Shown: positions 40,675 to 50,813, counted from the first letter of the stretch. The stretch is DNA of 64,000 nucleotides from Thermoproteota archaeon (GCA_030550585.1 JAUQPB010000002.1:82001-146000), one strand, 5' to 3'. The notes: generated by a model from the letters alone, not told the origin. Made by a program: numbers and translations.

Positions 40675-40750
40675 TCATTCTGTTGCATGGGAATATTTTA
40701 CATTTCTAACAAAAATATTTCTAGTAAATATGAAAATTTGTGGGAGGGTT

Positions 40751-41835
40751 ATGAATATAGAAAGTGAAAAAGGTTTCAATTTTTTAAAGAAGCTAGATGA
40801 AATAGCGGGTAAGACACGTAATTATATAGTCAAGTCAGAAGCTGAAACAGACCCTAGATATGGGTTCTACCCACCTGAAAGACCTATCGACATTTATATA
40901 AGTTACGGGTTTATTCCACTAGACAAGCCCCCTGGTCCAACAAGTCATGAAGTTGTGGCATGGATTAAGAAAATGTTTGGAGTCTCTAAGGCTGGGCATG
41001 GAGGTACCCTAGAGCCCAAACCCTAGATGGGTTTGGGCGGGGAGACCCAAAGGTTACAGGAGTACTTCCAGTAGCTCTAGAAAATGCTACTAGAGTAATA
41101 GGATTGCTTATGCATTCCTACAAAGAGTATGTGGCTTTAATGGAGCTTCACGATAAGGTTGAAGTGGATAGGCTTATAGAGGTCATGAACATGTTTGTTG
41201 GCAAGATATATCAAAGACCACCCCTAAGATCATCTGTTAAAAGATCTTTGAGAGTCAAGGAGGTATATTCAATAGAGGTTCTAGAGATTGAGGATGGAAA
41301 ACATGTTCTGTTTAAAGTTAGATGTGAGTCTGGAACTTATATAAGGAAGCTTTGTCATGATATAGGTCTTCTGCTTGGTGTTGAAGCACATATGAGGGAG
41401 TTGAGAAGGACTGCAGTTGCTCATATAAGGGAGGATCTACCTGTTGTAACTATGCATGAGGTTAGCGAAGCTCTTTATCTTCATCGTAAATATGGGGATG
41501 AGACCCTCATTCGAAAGGTTGTTCTACCAGGAGAATTTATAGTTGCTCACTTACCAAGGATTATAGTAAAAGATTCTGCTGTTGGCGCTATAACACATGG
41601 TGCTCAACTTGCGGCACCTGGTGTAGTTGCCTTATCGAATGACGTTAAAAAAGGTGATAGGGTAGCTATATTCACATTGAAGGGAGAGCTTATAGCTGTT
41701 GGCAAAAGTGTTATGGATGTGGATGAAATTATGAAAAGTGAGAAGGGTATTGTGGCAAATATCGAGCGTGTTGTTATGCAACCAAATATATATCCACCTA
41801 TGTGGAGGAAAGCCAAGAAAGCAGAGGGATCATGA
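40751..41835 (+). CDS. cbf5: Cbf5/dyskerin pseudouridine synthase, interrupted by an intron
   Basis: The catalytic subunit of the H/ACA RNP. Exon 1 (40751-41012) runs to GHGGTL; exon 2 (41045-41835) continues [17 protein letters not shown] and carries [15 protein letters not shown] and a C-terminal PUA domain (from about [17 protein letters not shown]). Removing 32 bases (41013-41044) restores GTLDPKVTG, in which D is the catalytic residue of TruB/Cbf5 enzymes. Without splicing, translation gives EPKP and a TAG. I chose the ATG at 40751 because GGGAGG precedes it; an ATG at 40730 would add seven residues. Spliced length is 350 residues. Introns at this gene are known in crenarchaea. Confidence 0.95.
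41013..41044 (+). other. Archaeal bulge-helix-bulge intron in cbf5
   Basis: Helix GCCCAAACCC/GGGTTTGGGC (intron), then two 3-nt AGA bulges (41011-41013 and 41043-41045) separated by a 4-bp helix CCCT/GGGG, form a bulge-helix-bulge motif for the tRNA splicing endonuclease. Cutting between bulge bases 2 and 3 removes 32 nt. The junction can slide by one base either way without changing the product. Confidence 0.9.
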
Positions 41836-42508: not shown

Positions 42509-42596
42509 GCCGGGGTGCCCGAGCGGTCTAAGGGGCTGGCCTTGAGAGCCAGTGGGGTATATCCCCGCGCGGGTTCAAATCCCGCCCCCGGCGCCA
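42509..42596 (+). tRNA. tRNA-Ser (anticodon TGA)
   Basis: Acceptor GCCGGGG/CCCCGGC, anticodon stem CTGGC/GCCAG with loop CTTGAGA (anticodon TGA), a long variable arm (GGGG-TATAT-CCCC) typical of tRNA-Ser, T arm GCGGG-TTCAAAT-CCCGC, discriminator G (42593) and encoded CCA (42594-42596). No intron. Confidence 0.95.
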
Positions 42597-42981: not shown

Positions 42982-45900
42982 ATGGGACTTTCAAGCAAAA
43001 GAATAGCATCGGTGATTATGTCAATATTAATGCTCTTAATAGCAATGTTATCGATGACCATGTTAATTATCGAACAGAGATCTAATGTTTTAGCGCAATC
43101 ATCTGTTGAGTACTTTGTTGAAAATGGGGAGGTGTATATGAAGCTGCCAGACGGTACCACCAAAGCAATATATTTAACAGGTGTTAACTGGTTTGGCTTT
43201 GAGACAACAAATTATGTTGTTCACGGTCTTTGGGCTAGGAATTGGGTGGATATGCTAAATCAGATGAAGAGCCTAGGCTTCAACGCTATAAGATTACCCT
43301 TCTGCCCGCCCTCTGTAACACCAGGTACAACACCTTCATCCATAGACTATAACAAGAACCCAGATCTGCAGGGGCTCGACTCAGTGTCTATTATGGAGAA
43401 AATCATACAAAAAGCTGGTGAATTAGGGATCTTCATAATTCTTGACTTCCACAGGATTGGCTGTAACGATATAGAGCCACTATGGTATACAAGCTCGTTT
43501 ACAGAGCAAGACTATATAAATGTCTGGAAATCAGTGGCTCAAAGATTTGGTAAATACCCAAATGTGGTGGGGGCTGACCTCAAAAACGAGCCTCATTGCC
43601 CTATTGGAATGTCTAGACAAGACTGCTATACAAGTGGCCAGGGAGCAACATGGGGTGTAGGTAACCAGAAAACTGACTGGAATCTAGCCGCAGAGAGAAT
43701 AGGTAATGCTGTCCTTAGCGTTGCTCCTCACTGGCTAATAATCGTTGAAGGTACTCAATACACAAATCCCAAGTCTGACAACGTATCCTTGTATCCAGAT
43801 GCTGTTTACTGGGGCGAAAACCTAAGGGCAGTAAAAGACTACCCTGTAAACTTGCCTAGCAACAAACTACTCTACTCGGCACATGAATACGGACCTGACG
43901 TATATGTACAGCCATATTACAACGACCCGAATATATATCCAAATAATTTAAATCTAATATGGGAGCAAAATTGGGGTTATGTTAGAACAAAGCTGGGACT
44001 ACCAGTATTCTTAGGCGAGTTTGGAGGAAAATATGGACATGGGGGAGATTCACGAGATGTTACATTCCAGCAGAAACTCGTAGATTACCTCATAAACACA
44101 GGAATATGCTGGTGGACATACTGGAGCTGGAACCCCAACAGCGGAGACACAGGCGGAATACTGCAAGATGACTGGATCACAATATGGCAAGACAAATACA
44201 ATAACCTCAAGAGGTCGATTGATTACTGCAAATCCAAATACGGGGAAGTGTGGGCGCCAAGTGCAACTACATCTCCAACTACAGTTACAGCAACTATAAT
44301 CACCACTACGACTGCTACGACGACCACATCTCCAAGAACAACCACTACAACTTCTCCGACAACCACTACACAGGTGACAACAACTGCTACTACGCTTAGG
44401 ACAACTACTACTACTGTAGTTACAACTACGGCTTATACGAGTTATGTTACTGTGTTGTCTGGTGTTGTTAGTGTTCCTGTTACTGCTTCTGCTGTTTTCA
44501 CTATTACCTCTCCTGTTACCACTACTGTAACTGCTGTTACAACGACTACTGTTCCTGTGACGATTGTTGCTACAGTTACATTAACAGTTCCGGTAACAAC
44601 AACTGTTACACCAACAACTACAACTACTACCACTACCACTAGTACAACAACCACAACTACACAAGTAACAACAACTACTACAACTACTTCGGCTGCTGGT
44701 CTTGTTTCTGCTCCTTCGACGAAGGTTGTTGTTGTTGCTTCTAGGCCTGGTGGTTTGTCTGGTGTTTTGCAGTTCAAGGTTTTGAGTGGTGGTACTATAT
44801 CTACCTCCTCTGGGAGTATATCAATTCCGAGTGGTGCTACTGTTTCAATTGATTTTGCTAGTAGTAGTGGTTCTCTTTGGATTGGTGCAGATGGTTGGAT
44901 GTCTGCATCTGGTATAAGCGTTAAAGCCATATATGTTAATGGTAATCAGGTTGCTGGCTCAACAACTATAACGGGTGTTACAAATGTTAGAGTAGATCTA
45001 TCGTCTATAATGACGTCTCTGACGCTAACAATATCTGGTAGTGGTTGGACACAGATAACATATGGTGGACAAACACTTGTTTCTGGCTCGAACAGCCAGA
45101 CAATTGTCATTCCAAACATTGGTGCAACATCTAGCCAACCACTAAACCTGAACATGGGAAGCAACAGCATATACCTAGAAGCAACATCTAGCCAACCACA
45201 AATAGGAGCTACAACAACCACAACAACTACCACTACTATGACCACTCCAACGACTACTCCTACAACTATAATCACTACTACATCTCCGACAACCACTACT
45301 ACGACTACTACTACGCCTAGAACGACGACTACTACAACCACATCTCCAACAACTACAACTACTCCTACAACTGTATCTCCAACGACAACAACCACAACTA
45401 CACAAGTAACAACAACTGTAGCATCAGCAACCATCATTACTGCTATTCCTGGTGTTAACGATGTTACTGTTGTTGGAGATGCGAATAATATATGGCCTTG
45501 TGGTTTGATAGGTAATGAATTCTATGCTTGTGTTAATTTATGGGGTCTTAGTAATTATCAGGGTCGGTTTAGTGGTCAAGTGGTTATGGTTCACAGGGCT
45601 GGAGGTCCGCTGATAGTTAATAACAGCCTTGTGTTAACAAACATAAATCTAAATCCATGGGATGTGATAGCGTATCACGAGGTTGTATATGGGGCATCTC
45701 CATGGGAGTCTCAGACACCTTATAGTAAGGGTGTTAGCGCGCTACTTATGCCTAGAAAGGTGAGCGAGTTTCCGAGAGTTATAGCATATTTAGACTACTC
45801 ATTCGACAAGTTTAACACAGCTGTGAACTTCGCGTTTGATTTGTGGCTCAAGAGAAATCCATCTACAGCTGGTGTTCAGCAAGGAGATATAGAGCTTATG

Positions 45901-46323
45901 ATATGGACTTTCAGCGGCAACGGTGCTGCACCAGGAGGATACCAGGTAGGGTCAGTAACAATACCGGTTCTTATCAATGGCCAGCTAGTCAATATGCGGT
46001 GGAATGTGTACTTCGGCTATCCATGGGGCAGTGGCTGGGTGTACATAGCCTTCTTCCCATCACAGCCTCTACAGAGGGGATCGATAGCTCTAGACATAAG
46101 AGCGTTTATAGAGAAGGCTGCAGAGATAATAAACCAGCAAAGAGCTGATCTAGGAATCAACCCATCGACAATAGGAAACTTCTACGTGATGACAATAGAG
46201 TTCGGCTCTGAAGTCTTCTACACACAGAATGTTGATGTTGATTGGGCTATCTTCAGATACTATCTAGCATTATATCCAATATCAGTGGACACAGTATCAG
46301 CATTAACATCGCTTCCAAAATAA
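42982..46323 (+). CDS. Secreted multidomain cellulase: GH5 + central beta domain + GH12
   Basis: A 1113-residue exported enzyme. Signal peptide about 1-38 (ends NVLA). GH5 domain about 42-425: VNWFGFETTN, acid/base E203 in LKNEPH, nucleophile E346 in FLGEFGGK, then GICWWTYWSWNP. A Thr-rich linker (about 429-570) follows, then a beta-rich Ser/Gly domain without a recognised family (about 575-742), a second Thr linker (744-813) and a C-terminal domain (about 825-1113). The last has GDIELMIWTF (E971, GH12 nucleophile position) and TIEFGSEVFYT (E1077, GH12 acid/base position). Two cellulase folds on one chain suggest degradation of beta-1,4-glucan outside the cell. The central domain may bind polysaccharide. 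The GH5 call is firm; GH12 rests on motif pattern. Confidence 0.85.
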   Translation: MGLSSKRIASVIMSILMLLIAMLSMTMLIIEQRSNVLAQSSVEYFVENGEVYMKLPDGTTKAIYLTGVNWFGFETTNYVVHGLWARNWVDMLNQMKSLGFNAIRLPFCPPSVTPGTTPSSIDYNKNPDLQGLDSVSIMEKIIQKAGELGIFIILDFHRIGCNDIEPLWYTSSFTEQDYINVWKSVAQRFGKYPNVVGADLKNEPHCPIGMSRQDCYTSGQGATWGVGNQKTDWNLAAERIGNAVLSVAPHWLIIVEGTQYTNPKSDNVSLYPDAVYWGENLRAVKDYPVNLPSNKLLYSAHEYGPDVYVQPYYNDPNIYPNNLNLIWEQNWGYVRTKLGLPVFLGEFGGKYGHGGDSRDVTFQQKLVDYLINTGICWWTYWSWNPNSGDTGGILQDDWITIWQDKYNNLKRSIDYCKSKYGEVWAPSATTSPTTVTATIITTTTATTTTSPRTTTTTSPTTTTQVTTTATTLRTTTTTVVTTTAYTSYVTVLSGVVSVPVTASAVFTITSPVTTTVTAVTTTTVPVTIVATVTLTVPVTTTVTPTTTTTTTTTSTTTTTTQVTTTTTTTSAAGLVSAPSTKVVVVASRPGGLSGVLQFKVLSGGTISTSSGSISIPSGATVSIDFASSSGSLWIGADGWMSASGISVKAIYVNGNQVAGSTTITGVTNVRVDLSSIMTSLTLTISGSGWTQITYGGQTLVSGSNSQTIVIPNIGATSSQPLNLNMGSNSIYLEATSSQPQIGATTTTTTTTTMTTPTTTPTTIITTTSPTTTTTTTTTPRTTTTTTTSPTTTTTPTTVSPTTTTTTTQVTTTVASATIITAIPGVNDVTVVGDANNIWPCGLIGNEFYACVNLWGLSNYQGRFSGQVVMVHRAGGPLIVNNSLVLTNINLNPWDVIAYHEVVYGASPWESQTPYSKGVSALLMPRKVSEFPRVIAYLDYSFDKFNTAVNFAFDLWLKRNPSTAGVQQGDIELMIWTFSGNGAAPGGYQVGSVTIPVLINGQLVNMRWNVYFGYPWGSGWVYIAFFPSQPLQRGSIALDIRAFIEKAAEIINQQRADLGINPSTIGNFYVMTIEFGSEVFYTQNVDVDWAIFRYYLALYPISVDTVSALTSLPK
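44266..44434 (+). repeat. ACN-rich low-complexity linker DNA, first block
   Basis: Repeated Thr codons (mostly ACA/ACT/ACC) with interspersed CCA/TCT encode the first Pro/Thr linker of the cellulase. On the opposite strand it yields meaningless Val-rich frames. Such stretches are prone to slippage and length variation. Confidence 0.8.
44605..44688 (+). repeat. ACN-rich low-complexity linker DNA, second block
   Basis: A second Thr-codon run closing the first linker, just before the central beta-rich domain (SAAGLVSAPS). The stretch between it and the first block has Val/Thr alternation (VTVPVT-like) instead of pure Thr. Confidence 0.8.
45211..45420 (+). repeat. ACN-rich low-complexity linker DNA, third block
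   Basis: Thr/Pro-codon repeat between the central domain and the GH12-type domain. Just upstream an 18-bp direct repeat, GCAACATCTAGCCAACCA (near 45123 and 45180), indicates local duplication. Confidence 0.8.
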
Positions 46324-46587: not shown

Positions 46588-48324
46588 TTGCGTTCGTTTA
46601 GGGGTGGCAAACTTGATGTAGGATATTTTATTGGTCTTGCAGTATCATTATTTGTTCTGGTTTCCGAAACTGTATTGTTGGTTCTTAACATAGATTTGGT
46701 CAAGGTTAATTCAATTAGTGAGTTTATAAGCAATGCATTGAAATTTTCGCTTCTTTGTTCATATATAATGACGCTCTTTGGTATACCAGCGTTAATTTCT
46801 TGGTCTAGCGATGCGGCGAGAAATATTGTTAATTTATATAGAAGGTATTCTATTATGAGTCTCACCTCATTGGATGAGAGTAAAATAAGAGTGGGAATAA
46901 ACGTTCTCTTTGTAGTGATATCAATATCTCTTTTCATGGTGATACTATCAATAATTTATAGGACTCCCATATTGTCTATAGCATCTTTTGTACCGCTATT
47001 TGTATTTATATTCATTCTGATGAAACCGGTTATTGATGTTAAGCATCATAGTAGTTCTGTTGATGCAGAATTGAAGTGGTTTATGATTTTGCTTCTTGTT
47101 GTAGAGTATGTTGGAAGTGGAATAGATTTTCTTGTGAAAAAGATCTCCAGATCTAACCTTCTACGACATATTTCAAGAGAGTTGAGTGTTATTAAAAGAG
47201 ATGCTCTGCTATATTTCCAATCTTATGTCGAAGCAATTATTCAAAGAGCCAAGACAACGCCTAGTGAGAAGCTTAAGAGAATATTATTAGGGTATGCTAT
47301 GAGACTTAGAGAGGGTGGGGATGTTGTAGCATGGTTAAAAACAGTATTAGGAGAAGAGTTGATCAAATGGGAGTGGGAGACAAAGATATATTCTGAAAGA
47401 GTGGCACTCATAGTTCTTCAAATAGCTATTGCAGTATTTGTCTTGCTGCCAACATTAGTAGTTGCAATACCTATCATAAGTTGGAGAATAGCTATAATGG
47501 CGGTGATTTTGGCAACACCGCTGTTATGTATAATAGCTTATGCCACTAGGCCAAAATCGTTAAATAGAATTAGCAGTAGTATGTTGCTAACCCCGCTAAT
47601 TGTATTAGGTGTCACATCATCACTGTTGTTTATATATATTGGTAGCCAGGGCATAGTTTTGGGATGGATCATAGCATCTATAGCAAGTATAAACGTGAAT
47701 AAGCAGTTAAAGGAGATAGAAACTCTTGATAGAGAGTCTCTAGAGATTCTAAAAATGGCTGCTGAGCTTAAGAAACATGGTTATGAAATTCCTAGGGCAT
47801 TGAGCATCATAGCAAACAGCACATCAATTAGCGCAAAAACGTCTAGGCTTTTAAAGCATATAAATTCAATAGTTGAATCCGGACACGGTTTTGATGAAGC
47901 AATAGCTGTTGTCTCCTCACCTTCGTTTCAATTCAATTTTGTGTTGCTACTTCTAGGGTTAATGTATGAGAGTGGCGGAGGCGATGAAGAGGCGATACAA
48001 ACAGTGTATGAGTACTTGTATAGATACAAAGCATATGAAAGCAATATCAAGAAAGCCTCATATATATTTGAATTCTTTGCTGTAGCCAACCTAGCTATAA
48101 TCTTGTGGGTATGGAGGACACTACATCCAATGTTTGCTTCAAATATTCTTCAGTTTGTAGCTATAACATTATTGCCAAATAGTGCTATAGCACTTATAAT
48201 TGTGGTATCTTTAATCGGATACTCGTTAGTATCTTCAATTATTAGAAGTGGATTCCCAGTAATAGATGCTGTGAGAAGCATACCACTAGCATTACTCGCC
48301 TCGCTCGTAATTTCATTCCTATAA
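46588..48324 (+). CDS. TadC/FlaJ-type pilus assembly platform protein
   Basis: A 578-residue polytopic membrane protein with two cytoplasmic helical blocks: about 180-250 (LSVIKRDALLYFQSYVEAII, EGGDVVAWLKTVLGEEL) and about 370-470 (LEILKMAAELKKHGYEIPRA, VESGHGFDEAIAVVSSP). Each is followed by transmembrane helices. This duplicated T2SSF-like layout is typical of archaeal FlaJ/TadC homologues that partner a secretion ATPase to build type IV pilus-like fibres. TTG at 46588 is the likely start, with TTGGGGA just upstream. Three pilin-like genes follow, but no ATPase; an orphan ATPase lies at 8.1 kb. Confidence 0.75.
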   Translation: MRSFRGGKLDVGYFIGLAVSLFVLVSETVLLVLNIDLVKVNSISEFISNALKFSLLCSYIMTLFGIPALISWSSDAARNIVNLYRRYSIMSLTSLDESKIRVGINVLFVVISISLFMVILSIIYRTPILSIASFVPLFVFIFILMKPVIDVKHHSSSVDAELKWFMILLLVVEYVGSGIDFLVKKISRSNLLRHISRELSVIKRDALLYFQSYVEAIIQRAKTTPSEKLKRILLGYAMRLREGGDVVAWLKTVLGEELIKWEWETKIYSERVALIVLQIAIAVFVLLPTLVVAIPIISWRIAIMAVILATPLLCIIAYATRPKSLNRISSSMLLTPLIVLGVTSSLLFIYIGSQGIVLGWIIASIASINVNKQLKEIETLDRESLEILKMAAELKKHGYEIPRALSIIANSTSISAKTSRLLKHINSIVESGHGFDEAIAVVSSPSFQFNFVLLLLGLMYESGGGDEEAIQTVYEYLYRYKAYESNIKKASYIFEFFAVANLAIILWVWRTLHPMFASNILQFVAITLLPNSAIALIIVVSLIGYSLVSSIIRSGFPVIDAVRSIPLALLASLVISFL

Positions 48325-48361
48325 CATTTTATAAATCTTGCATCTAAACCCGGGGGAGCAG

Positions 48362-48853
48362 ATGAACAGTCAGATAAATAAAGGTATTAGTGAACTACTA
48401 GCAATAGTACTTGGCATTGTAATAACTATAGCAATCGGTATGGCACTGTTCACATTGATTCCTGGATACTTCAACTCATTGCAACAACAGCAAAGGATTG
48501 CAATAACTGGTTTCAATATAAATGCAGTAGATAATAAGGTAGCTATTGCAACAGTCAATATAAAGAACTTGGGCACAAAGGACATCAGCAACATAACTAT
48601 TTATATCAGTTCTTCGAGAAACGTAAGTTATATTCTATTACCTATAAACAAGATTGAGGGAGTATGCTATAATAATAGTGCTGCGGTGGTATGTTCTGTC
48701 TCCATAGCTCCAGGACAAGAAACGTCTATAGCTCTCCAGCTAAAATCCGCAGGCCCCTCTATTGTTATAGGCGATAAAGTTGTTGTAACGGTTGTTGCGA
48801 CATTTGTTGACAAAAGCATCTCAACAGGCTCTGCCACAGGATACATATACTAG
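48362..48853 (+). CDS. Pilin-like protein with class III signal peptide
   Basis: The 163-residue product begins MNSQINKGISELLAIVLGIV: a short charged leader, a K-G-I-S-E site fitting the archaeal prepilin peptidase (cut after Gly), then one hydrophobic helix (about 11-32) and a Thr/Asn/Val-rich beta domain (NVSYILLP, VCSVSIAPGQETSI). This is the plan of archaeal type IV pilins. I chose the ATG at 48362 (GGGGGAG precedes it); an upstream ATG at 48338 would hide the leader. It follows the TadC-like gene by 37 bases. Confidence 0.75.
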   Translation: MNSQINKGISELLAIVLGIVITIAIGMALFTLIPGYFNSLQQQQRIAITGFNINAVDNKVAIATVNIKNLGTKDISNITIYISSSRNVSYILLPINKIEGVCYNNSAAVVCSVSIAPGQETSIALQLKSAGPSIVIGDKVVVTVVATFVDKSISTGSATGYIY

Positions 48854-48881
48854 CTCTAAAATGAGATAGGTGTTTGAAGCA

Positions 48882-49325
48882 ATGTACAAAACATCATCTT
48901 TTTACATACACATACATTTATACAAGGCTATAACAGGATTTGTCGCACTATTAATTCTTCTTTCAATAAGTGTGGTAATAGGTGTTGCCGTCTTCCTAAA
49001 TCTTAATAAAATGTATAACATATCTAACCCATTTATCAATGAGAGAGTAGAATTAAAGATTAGGTGTTTTCTGGTTACAGCCGACGGATATTTATGCATA
49101 GCTTCAAATCCGTTGGGCAGTCCAATCAACATTAGCCTGCATTTAGTCAATGGAAGCATCTATGAATTTGTTGTACAACCAAACACTGTTACTCCAGTAC
49201 CATGTACACCCTCTGGACTCTGTGGATATTTTCGAGATAAGATTATTTATGGAGAGGCTGCAGCTGTAGAAGGTATAGCCAACTCATTTAATGGAAAAAT
49301 TTATGTAGTTATCGACTATGGGTGA
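48882..49325 (+). CDS. Small secreted pilin-like protein
   Basis: A 147-residue protein with one N-terminal hydrophobic helix (about 16-38: GFVALLILLSISVVIGVAVF) and a beta-rich exterior containing four cysteines (IRCFLVTADGYLCIASNP and VPCTPSGLCGYF), which may form disulfides. The leader before the helix is longer than usual and the peptidase site is less clear (KAITG). Start at 48882, with GATAGGTG upstream; a GTG at 48870 is possible. It lies between two other pilin-like genes. Confidence 0.6.
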   Translation: MYKTSSFYIHIHLYKAITGFVALLILLSISVVIGVAVFLNLNKMYNISNPFINERVELKIRCFLVTADGYLCIASNPLGSPINISLHLVNGSIYEFVVQPNTVTPVPCTPSGLCGYFRDKIIYGEAAAVEGIANSFNGKIYVVIDYG

Positions 49326-49331
49326 GAAAAC

Positions 49332-50636
49332 ATGCTTGTAAGGGCACAAGGGGAGTATGTTTCAGCAATTATAATGATCATTATAATGGTTCTTTTCACG
49401 ATCTTAGCATCTGAGTGGGGTACATACATTACGCAACTAGGTTATAAAATGATTAATGATATGAAATCATCTAAAGAGAATTTGGATTTAGACCTTCAAT
49501 ATGAAGATAATGGATATAAACTATTTGTGGTGAACAAATGGAGTGGAACATCAATAATAAAGGGTCTTATCATTCTATACAACGACTCTATGGCGCAATA
49601 TATAAACATGTCTAGTATAATAGTGCCTGTAGGTAGTGCTACAACACTAAGCATTAATTTGTCTAATTATCCAAATGTAGATAGGGTTTGCATATACACA
49701 AGCAACTTAAACCTCTTCTGCCGCCCCCTTTCAAAATCTCATCAATTAACACTAAATGTAGAAGAAGGCTATTGGTATGCCATACCAAAAAGTATTCTTG
49801 GAAACTCGAGTGGCTATAAAATTATAGAATCTAGAACAGGAAAAGAAATACAAGCATATACATGGGATGCCAATAGAAGTTACATAATCTTCTATGCAGA
49901 CACCTCAACTACTTTTACTATTCAAAAAAGCGACGAGCAATTGCCAATATTAGATACAAAGTCGTGGTTTAAGCCAAATATTGTCGCACCTCTATTAGAA
50001 CTGGATGTGGTACACTCGTTTGATTGGACGATTAATAGCGTCTGTGGTGTAGGGCCTGTCTATGGCTGTGGATATGCATATCAATATGCATATACAGATA
50101 TCAAAGAAGAGTCTTTTTGGTTTGATGGCAAAGCTGTACACTATGTAGCAACAATAGAATACTCTTTCCCCAACCAAATTGAATTCTATTATTATGCAGG
50201 AGGAGAAATAACTAAGATTTCGCTTAAGCTATTCGGTACTGACAATATACCAGAATGGAGTGATTGGTCTTCAAAGATAAAAATAATTAACATCGAAATA
50301 GCAGCCAATTTAGGTGCCTATATAAATGGGGATGCCCGGATCATGAACAAGCAATTCACATCCCTCGGCAATCGATGTGTCCTCAGAAGCGATGTGGAAG
50401 GCGCATATTTTAGTTATGCGCCATCACAAGTAGAAATAACATCAAATACCACTGCAATTATAACCACGAGTAATAGTGAAGGAGCTATATGCGCATTCGA
50501 GCCATATAATATAGTAAAAGTTAAAGTCGAAAGCAACTTACCACTTGTATCTATACACATCAATAAGATTTATCAGAGCAGTCAACAAGGAATTATATTT
50601 GCTCCTAATGGAAATAAAATTAGAATAATTGGCTGA
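49332..50636 (+). CDS. Large secreted pilin-like or pilus-tip protein
   Basis: A 434-residue protein whose N-terminus, MLVRAQGEYVSAIIMIIIMV, has a short leader, a G-E-Y site and a single helix (about 10-30), as in archaeal class III signal peptides. The exterior is large and beta-rich with many aromatic residues and Cys pairs (VDRVCIYTSNLNLFC, VCGVGPVYGCGYAYQYAY). Size and position (last of the cluster) suggest a minor pilin or adhesive tip subunit, perhaps contacting polysaccharide. No carbohydrate-binding family is recognised. It starts 6 bases after the previous stop. Confidence 0.6.
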   Translation: MLVRAQGEYVSAIIMIIIMVLFTILASEWGTYITQLGYKMINDMKSSKENLDLDLQYEDNGYKLFVVNKWSGTSIIKGLIILYNDSMAQYINMSSIIVPVGSATTLSINLSNYPNVDRVCIYTSNLNLFCRPLSKSHQLTLNVEEGYWYAIPKSILGNSSGYKIIESRTGKEIQAYTWDANRSYIIFYADTSTTFTIQKSDEQLPILDTKSWFKPNIVAPLLELDVVHSFDWTINSVCGVGPVYGCGYAYQYAYTDIKEESFWFDGKAVHYVATIEYSFPNQIEFYYYAGGEITKISLKLFGTDNIPEWSDWSSKIKIINIEIAANLGAYINGDARIMNKQFTSLGNRCVLRSDVEGAYFSYAPSQVEITSNTTAIITTSNSEGAICAFEPYNIVKVKVESNLPLVSIHINKIYQSSQQGIIFAPNGNKIRIIG

Positions 50637-50727
50637 TCTATTAACAAACTAAACTTTTTATCTTAATTATATATCTTCAGCATTGTATTTGTTTACCTAT
50701 CGATGCTTACATAAAGTAAAGCTTTAG

Positions 50728-50813
50728 TCCCGCCGGGGGGACTTGAACCCCCGACCACCCGGTATCCGCCCGCCTCACTACAGCCGGGCGCTCTGCCGCT
50801 GAGCTACGGCGGG
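50728..50813 (-). tRNA. tRNA-Tyr (anticodon GTA) with a 14-nt intron
   Basis: Minus-strand cloverleaf: acceptor CCCGCCG/CGGCGGG, D stem GCTC/GAGC, anticodon stem CCCGG/CCGGG, anticodon GTA, T arm GGGGG-TTCAAGT-CCCCC, discriminator A (50728). No CCA is encoded. The anticodon loop holds 14 extra bases (50764-50777) after position 37, the common archaeal intron site. A minus-strand TATA CTTATAAAG lies near 50843-50851. Confidence 0.93.
50764..50777 (-). other. tRNA-Tyr intron
   Basis: Minus-strand TGAGGCGGGCGGAT between positions 37 and 38 of tRNA-Tyr. Removing it leaves a regular 7-base loop CTGTAGA. It would be excised by the splicing endonuclease and ligated by RtcB. Confidence 0.85.

Follow-up and report, generated by a model that had tools for sequence, protein, structure and literature searches.

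The window, a stretch of 64,000 nucleotides (G000:C7:82001-146000), carries a gene whose product is probably a secreted bifunctional endoglucanase of a hyperthermophilic Ignisphaera, equipped with an attachment module from the archaeal cell surface. We infer the genus of the host, whose genome (G000) comprises 1.76 Mb in seven contigs. The gene is a single unbroken ORF of 1113 aa (42982-46323, + strand), with exactly the coordinates first noted, and the ORF, the PF00150 match and the PF01670 match all agree with the claim of an earlier note that one protein unites a GH5 and a GH12 domain. From the N-terminus, the order is export signal, GH5, Thr-rich linker 1, a central domain hereafter called MID, Thr-rich linker 2 and GH12:

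42982..43098, +, N-terminal basic and hydrophobic export signal, aa 1-39 (mean hydropathy 2.4 over aa 10-28)
43099..44247, +, predicted GH5 endoglucanase domain, aa 40-422 (PF00150 1.9e-48; EGPh 2zum 2.3e-172)
43588-43590, +, GH5 acid/base E203
44017-44019, +, GH5 nucleophile E346
44248..44688, +, Thr-rich linker 1, aa 423-569 (52% Thr over aa 424-575)
44431..44631, +, conserved V/T-rich segment within linker 1, aa 484-550 (identity to G132 linkers)
44689..45210, +, MID, central all-beta domain, aa 570-743 (AlphaFold2 model; homologs in 17/229 genomes)
45211..45417, +, Thr-rich linker 2, aa 744-812 (63% Thr over aa 745-830)
45418..46320, +, predicted GH12 endoglucanase domain, aa 813-1113 (PF01670 1e-19; PDB Cel12A/EglA 3e-22 to 2e-19)
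45892-45894, +, GH12 nucleophile E971
46210-46212, +, GH12 acid/base E1077

A frameshift or an assembly join behind the fusion was rejected in view of the single ORF and of orthologous pieces in a sister species (G132), whose GH5 and GH12 counterparts are 81% and 71% identical, respectively. The complete GH5-MID-GH12 order is known from one genome only, because the G132 contig breaks inside a Thr/Pro linker. From gene context and repeats, recent insertion by a mobile element was also judged improbable: the cellulase gene is a lone one, flanked by a tRNA-Ser and a pilus operon, and the only repeats found around it are Thr-codon repeats and one short pair within MID.

Two predicted catalytic domains at opposite ends of Thr-rich linkers

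In a Pfam scan of the whole protein, aa 67-387 matched PF00150 with 165.8 bits against a gathering score of 23.5 (1.9e-48). The closest solved relative of aa 14-434 is EGPh (PH1171) of P. horikoshii (PDB 2zum, E 2.3e-172), a single-domain enzyme of 458 aa, and by alignment E203 and E346 correspond to EGPh E201 and E342. When compared with the catalytic-cleft residues and disulfide cysteines listed for EGPh (PMC4853606), the GH5 active-site set is complete (8/8: R104, H157, N202, E203, H301, Y303, E346 and W381) and both disulfide pairs (4 Cys) are kept. From its sequence, the domain would be a retaining endo-beta-1,4-glucanase.

The same Pfam scan of all 1113 aa did not detect the GH12 domain; the Thr linkers had probably set off composition correction. 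When isolated, the segment matched PF01670 (1e-19, 72 bits, cut-off 27); the earlier note had staked its reading beforehand on a GH12 match in the C-terminal segment, and one was found. The closest solved relatives are Thermotoga Cel12A and P. furiosus EglA (PF0854; PDB, 3e-22 to 2e-19), which are only distantly similar but have the same two catalytic Glu. E971 falls in the Thermotoga nucleophile column, the very position that is changed in the E-to-C entry 3amn. E1077 lies in the acid/base column, within a G-[T/S]-E motif whose Glu is invariant; both columns are invariant among eleven homologs. For EglA, a calcium motif DxDxDG has been described (PMC4853606); none was seen here in the sequence preceding the GH12 domain. 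In the GH12 tree, this domain and its G132 counterpart form their own branch. The GH12 domain is likewise predicted to be an active endoglucanase, and alignment to known enzymes confirms all four catalytic Glu named in the earlier note.

The Thr contents listed above bear out the long Thr linkers that had been claimed. The segment of linker 1 at aa 484-550 is 56-62% identical to linker segments in two other G132 cellulases. Both linkers are probably extended and perhaps O-glycosylated. Matches of the Thr linkers to pore-forming-toxin structures (E about 0.004) were dismissed as composition artefacts. At the N-terminus, hydropathy supports the predicted export signal, and hence the claim of a secreted protein, with a possible cleavage after LA-Q/S. 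The C-terminus (...VSALTSLPK) shows neither a hydrophobic helix or anchor nor an archaeosortase-type sorting tail. The enzyme would be exported from the cell, its GH5 barrel of EGPh type and its jelly roll of family GH12 held at opposite ends of the linkers, and both domains would cut beta-1,4 or mixed-linkage glucan outside the cell by a retaining mechanism.

The central domain and its relatives

The unassigned central domain suspected at aa 575-742 is real, since a profile of 17 members spans about aa 580-744. MID has no Pfam family above cut-off and no NCBIfam or PDB relative. With the 17-sequence alignment, AlphaFold2 modelled it as an all-beta domain of 16 strands (pLDDT 97.1, pTM 0.91); folded from the single sequence, it reached a pLDDT of only 47. 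In Foldseek searches with the model, neither a PDB entry nor a viral model matched at E<=0.001; the best PDB match had an E of 0.085, and TM-scores were about 0.2 or less. This suggests that the predicted fold is absent from the PDB. Matches of the MID profile to the designed WD40-like protein 'Tako8' (PDB) covered ~39 residues without any passing stretch and were set aside as a composition artefact. The conserved aromatics of the domain are W639, Y651, W689 and Y694. Of 229 genomes of the class, 17 contained MID homologs in a profile search, as did a few genomes elsewhere in the phylum; these counts are small. Their tree has long branches and, beyond the splits between the named groups, only 2 of its 15 inner forks are starred. 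As judged from these sequences, MID is a new part of the cellulase and a member of an undescribed family of archaeal cell-surface domains.

First, MID occurs in other cellulases. In G132, we found a MID-linker-GH12 protein (661 aa), a protein made of a GH42/GH5-like barrel, GH12 and MID (1370 aa), and a GH12-GH12-MID protein apparently split across two contig ends. The GH12 partners of MID fall into different clades of the GH12 tree, two further ones being represented in G132, whereas a single clade (96/92) unites the MIDs of all three complete cellulases. This pattern points to one recruitment followed by shuffling, as for carbohydrate-binding modules (CBMs). MID would then have been taken once from an archaeal cell-surface protein family and moved among several cellulase genes of the genus. 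The contigs of the G132 cellulase cluster (L055:1-4956, L056 and L057; C1/C9/C3 ends) are broken inside near-identical Thr/Pro linkers and MID copies, so that its true gene order is hidden.

Second, MID occurs in free-standing proteins of an exported type, with a C-terminal VPE[FIV]-TM-basic tail recognized by eye in G000, G054, G071 and G114. Their genes belong to a cassette whose order is identical in G000, G071 and G054, which represent three families: MID, a membrane-bound HTH regulator, a GT2 glycosyltransferase, an exosortase-family protein and a membrane protein of about 570 aa. The cassette genes are rearranged in G039 and G173, MID lies near GT2 in G114 and G187, and the G071 cassette includes a PTPS_related membrane protein. 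In G000, G071 and G054, the sortase-like proteins scored 41-46 bits against 23 for TIGR04178 and all three keep the Cys, Arg and His, while no named archaeosortase family was matched at its cut-off; the GT2 resembles PgaC/IcaA and CelA. XrtG-type exosortase/archaeosortase cassettes include a GT2 and a membrane protein, and the free-standing MID proteins have the look of substrates of dedicated systems of this kind (TIGR04178; XrtG-type). The five-gene cassette of Thermoproteia (L063:82-5408, L070:876-6273 and L071:45-5585; also L180 and L182) looks like a dedicated archaeosortase system with the MID protein as its one substrate, a reading drawn from sequence similarity, the three conserved residues and tails judged by eye. 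The likeness concerns the relatives of MID, whereas the cellulase itself is tailless. Because free-standing MIDs adjoin both an exosortase-family protein and a PgaC/cellulose-synthase-like GT2, the family appears tied to surface glycans.

Third, MID is found in pilin-like proteins of about 400 aa with class III signals of the RG[LV]S type, which form one clade (100/100) and occur in five Ignisphaera genomes and in G102. At about 370-377 kb of G000:C7 (L064:6223-13023), several large proteins whose N-termini are of class III (prepilin-type) are encoded in a cluster, the first of them ending in MID; the cluster possibly specifies an adhesive pilus. In G173, a protein of 396 aa (L087 / L182:6412-7599) has MID after a region resembling, by eye, a secreted thermonuclease-type nuclease.

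Possible ligands of the central domain

We propose that MID would most likely hold the enzyme on a glycan surface, which may be either an insoluble substrate, in the manner of a CBM, or the glycan or surface layer of the cell itself. The suggestion in the earlier note that the central domain is a carbohydrate-binding fold stands in part. MID is a modular and confidently modelled beta domain that fills the accessory slot in several cellulase architectures and is joined to three GH12 clades, and this modularity argues for a CBM-like role. It is also all-beta with conserved aromatics, and the Pfam scan found no CBM, CBM2 included, elsewhere in the cellulase. As a true CBM, MID would bind cellulose or beta-glucan, bring both catalytic domains to insoluble substrate and replace the CBM2 pair of the Thermococcus multidomain enzyme described below. 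However, MID resembles no described CBM in sequence (Pfam) or in fold (Foldseek, PDB), and its family is most often found in archaeosortase-cassette and pilin-like proteins. Moreover, genomes with a free-standing MID mostly have no GH12 match, only G000 and G173 being in the GH12 list, so that cellulose binding is not the general role of the family. We regard a true CBM as a serious possibility, short of a probable one.

The family goes together with surface-glycan machinery and not with GH12, which argues that a glycan of the cell's own surface, instead of cellulose, may be the ligand. MID may be a tether to this self glycan or to the free-standing, putatively archaeosortase-anchored MID protein (G000:C6, about 139.8 kb), so that the cellulase would stay on the cell, by analogy a one-module counterpart of surface-anchored cellulase systems. 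G000 encodes the cellulase as well as a cassette with free-standing MID, a pilin-like protein of G000 also ends in MID, and the genome is without dockerin. Against this, G132 has cellulase MIDs, yet no free-standing cassette MID was found there. We regard a tether as just as serious a possibility as a true CBM, and likewise short of a probable one. A dockerin/cellulosome arrangement was rejected, as no dockerin was found in G000.

That MID is an inert, stable spacer separating the two catalytic domains would fit the long linkers on either side and the absence of functional annotation, but relatives carry the domain in N-terminal, C-terminal or central position and it is the only folded domain of the free-standing surface proteins, which makes a spacer unlikely. 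Finally, it is very improbable that either the GH5 or the GH12 domain is a relic without catalysis: the genus does retain a GH5 paralog without the acid/base Glu, but in the cellulase the GH5 active-site set (8/8) is complete and neither GH12 Glu has been lost, and the ortholog conserves these residues.

Returning to attachment on a glycan surface, a broader proposal, speculative and in our view not the likelier outcome, is that MID founds a new family of archaeal glycan-binding or attachment domains with a fold not in the PDB, a passenger of a dedicated crenarchaeal archaeosortase and glycosyltransferase cassette that was recruited into pilin-like proteins and, once, into cellulases that it would hold on cellulose or on the cell surface. 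If true, archaea would have in MID their own counterpart of CBMs and of cellulosome anchoring.

Known archaeal cellulases and genomic surroundings

To our knowledge, hyperthermophilic archaea have yielded few cellulases so far, and even fewer carbohydrate-binding modules are known from archaea. The earlier note did not know this architecture as a standard one; that impression does not hold for its main frame, since the combination of GH5 and GH12 in one archaeal polypeptide is already known. The MDG of Thermococcus sp. 2319x1, published in 2016, is GH5-GH12-GH12-CBM2-CBM2 (PMC4853606, PMC12265866), and a fosmid from an oil reservoir (F1) encodes GH5-GH12-GH12-CBM2 (PMC5622026). We also found the GH5-GH12-GH12 order in at least three further genomes, two MAGs of Desulfurococcales and one of Acidilobaceae, where the frames have 1529-1715 aa, and MDG-like frames of 1310-1360 aa in two Thermococcus-type MAGs; MID was absent from the two Thermococcus-type MDG-like loci examined. 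The GH5 domains of these MDG-like frames are 65-68% identical to that of the cellulase or to the family alignment.

Like MDG, the cellulase is a secreted archaeal polypeptide that begins with an EGPh-type GH5 and has GH12 behind it. Unlike MDG, it has one GH12 instead of two, which lies in neither MDG-type clade (GH12-1, GH12-2); it ends in this GH12 without the C-terminal CBM2 pair, and it has the central MID and Thr-rich linkers. The GH5-MID-GH12 fusion was probably built separately from MDG, out of a shared GH5 stock, and the cellulase would then represent a second GH5+GH12 type. Another multidomain archaeal cellulase with unassigned domains, EBI-244 (JF509452), came from an enrichment containing Ignisphaera, the same kind of organism, as far as the account of Graham 2011 given in PMC7469102 goes; according to that account, its GH5-like domain is distant (23% to MDG). 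G000 has three GH-A-like proteins of 840-851 aa whose relation to EBI-244 is uncertain.

MID is small (174 aa), confidently modelled and without known relative, and its ligand is directly testable. Its link to the archaeosortase/GT2 cassette and to pilin-like proteins offers a handle on how crenarchaea may attach enzymes or appendages to glycans.

In the window, the upstream neighbour of the cellulase gene is the tRNA-Ser, at 42509-42596. Directly downstream (46588-50636) lie a gene for a UpsF/BasF-like pilus assembly membrane protein and pilin-like genes, by sequence a pilus locus of the Ups/bindosome type. Further downstream (50727-50813, - strand), ARAGORN called a tRNA Thr(AGT); an intron in the anticodon loop is the probable source of its odd A34 anticodon, which would then be an artefact. 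The gene cbf5 at 40730-41835, for an RNA pseudouridine synthase, is interrupted by a short insert that forms a hairpin (GCCCAAACCC-TAGAT-GGGTTTGGGC). The sequence of the insert is consistent with a pre-mRNA intron like that known in cbf5 of I. aggregans (PMC2738675).

Elsewhere in the genus, a second GH5 paralog without obvious signal peptide is present in five copies across four Ignisphaera genomes (L069:6718-7914, that is G000:C3 at 270.7-271.9 kb, L050, L051, L047 and L053). In every copy, the acid/base Glu is replaced by Asn, His301 by Asn or Asp and Trp381 by Leu or Asn, while the nucleophile Glu is retained. These substitutions may be read as marking either a conserved pseudo-glycosidase or an enzyme of altered chemistry.
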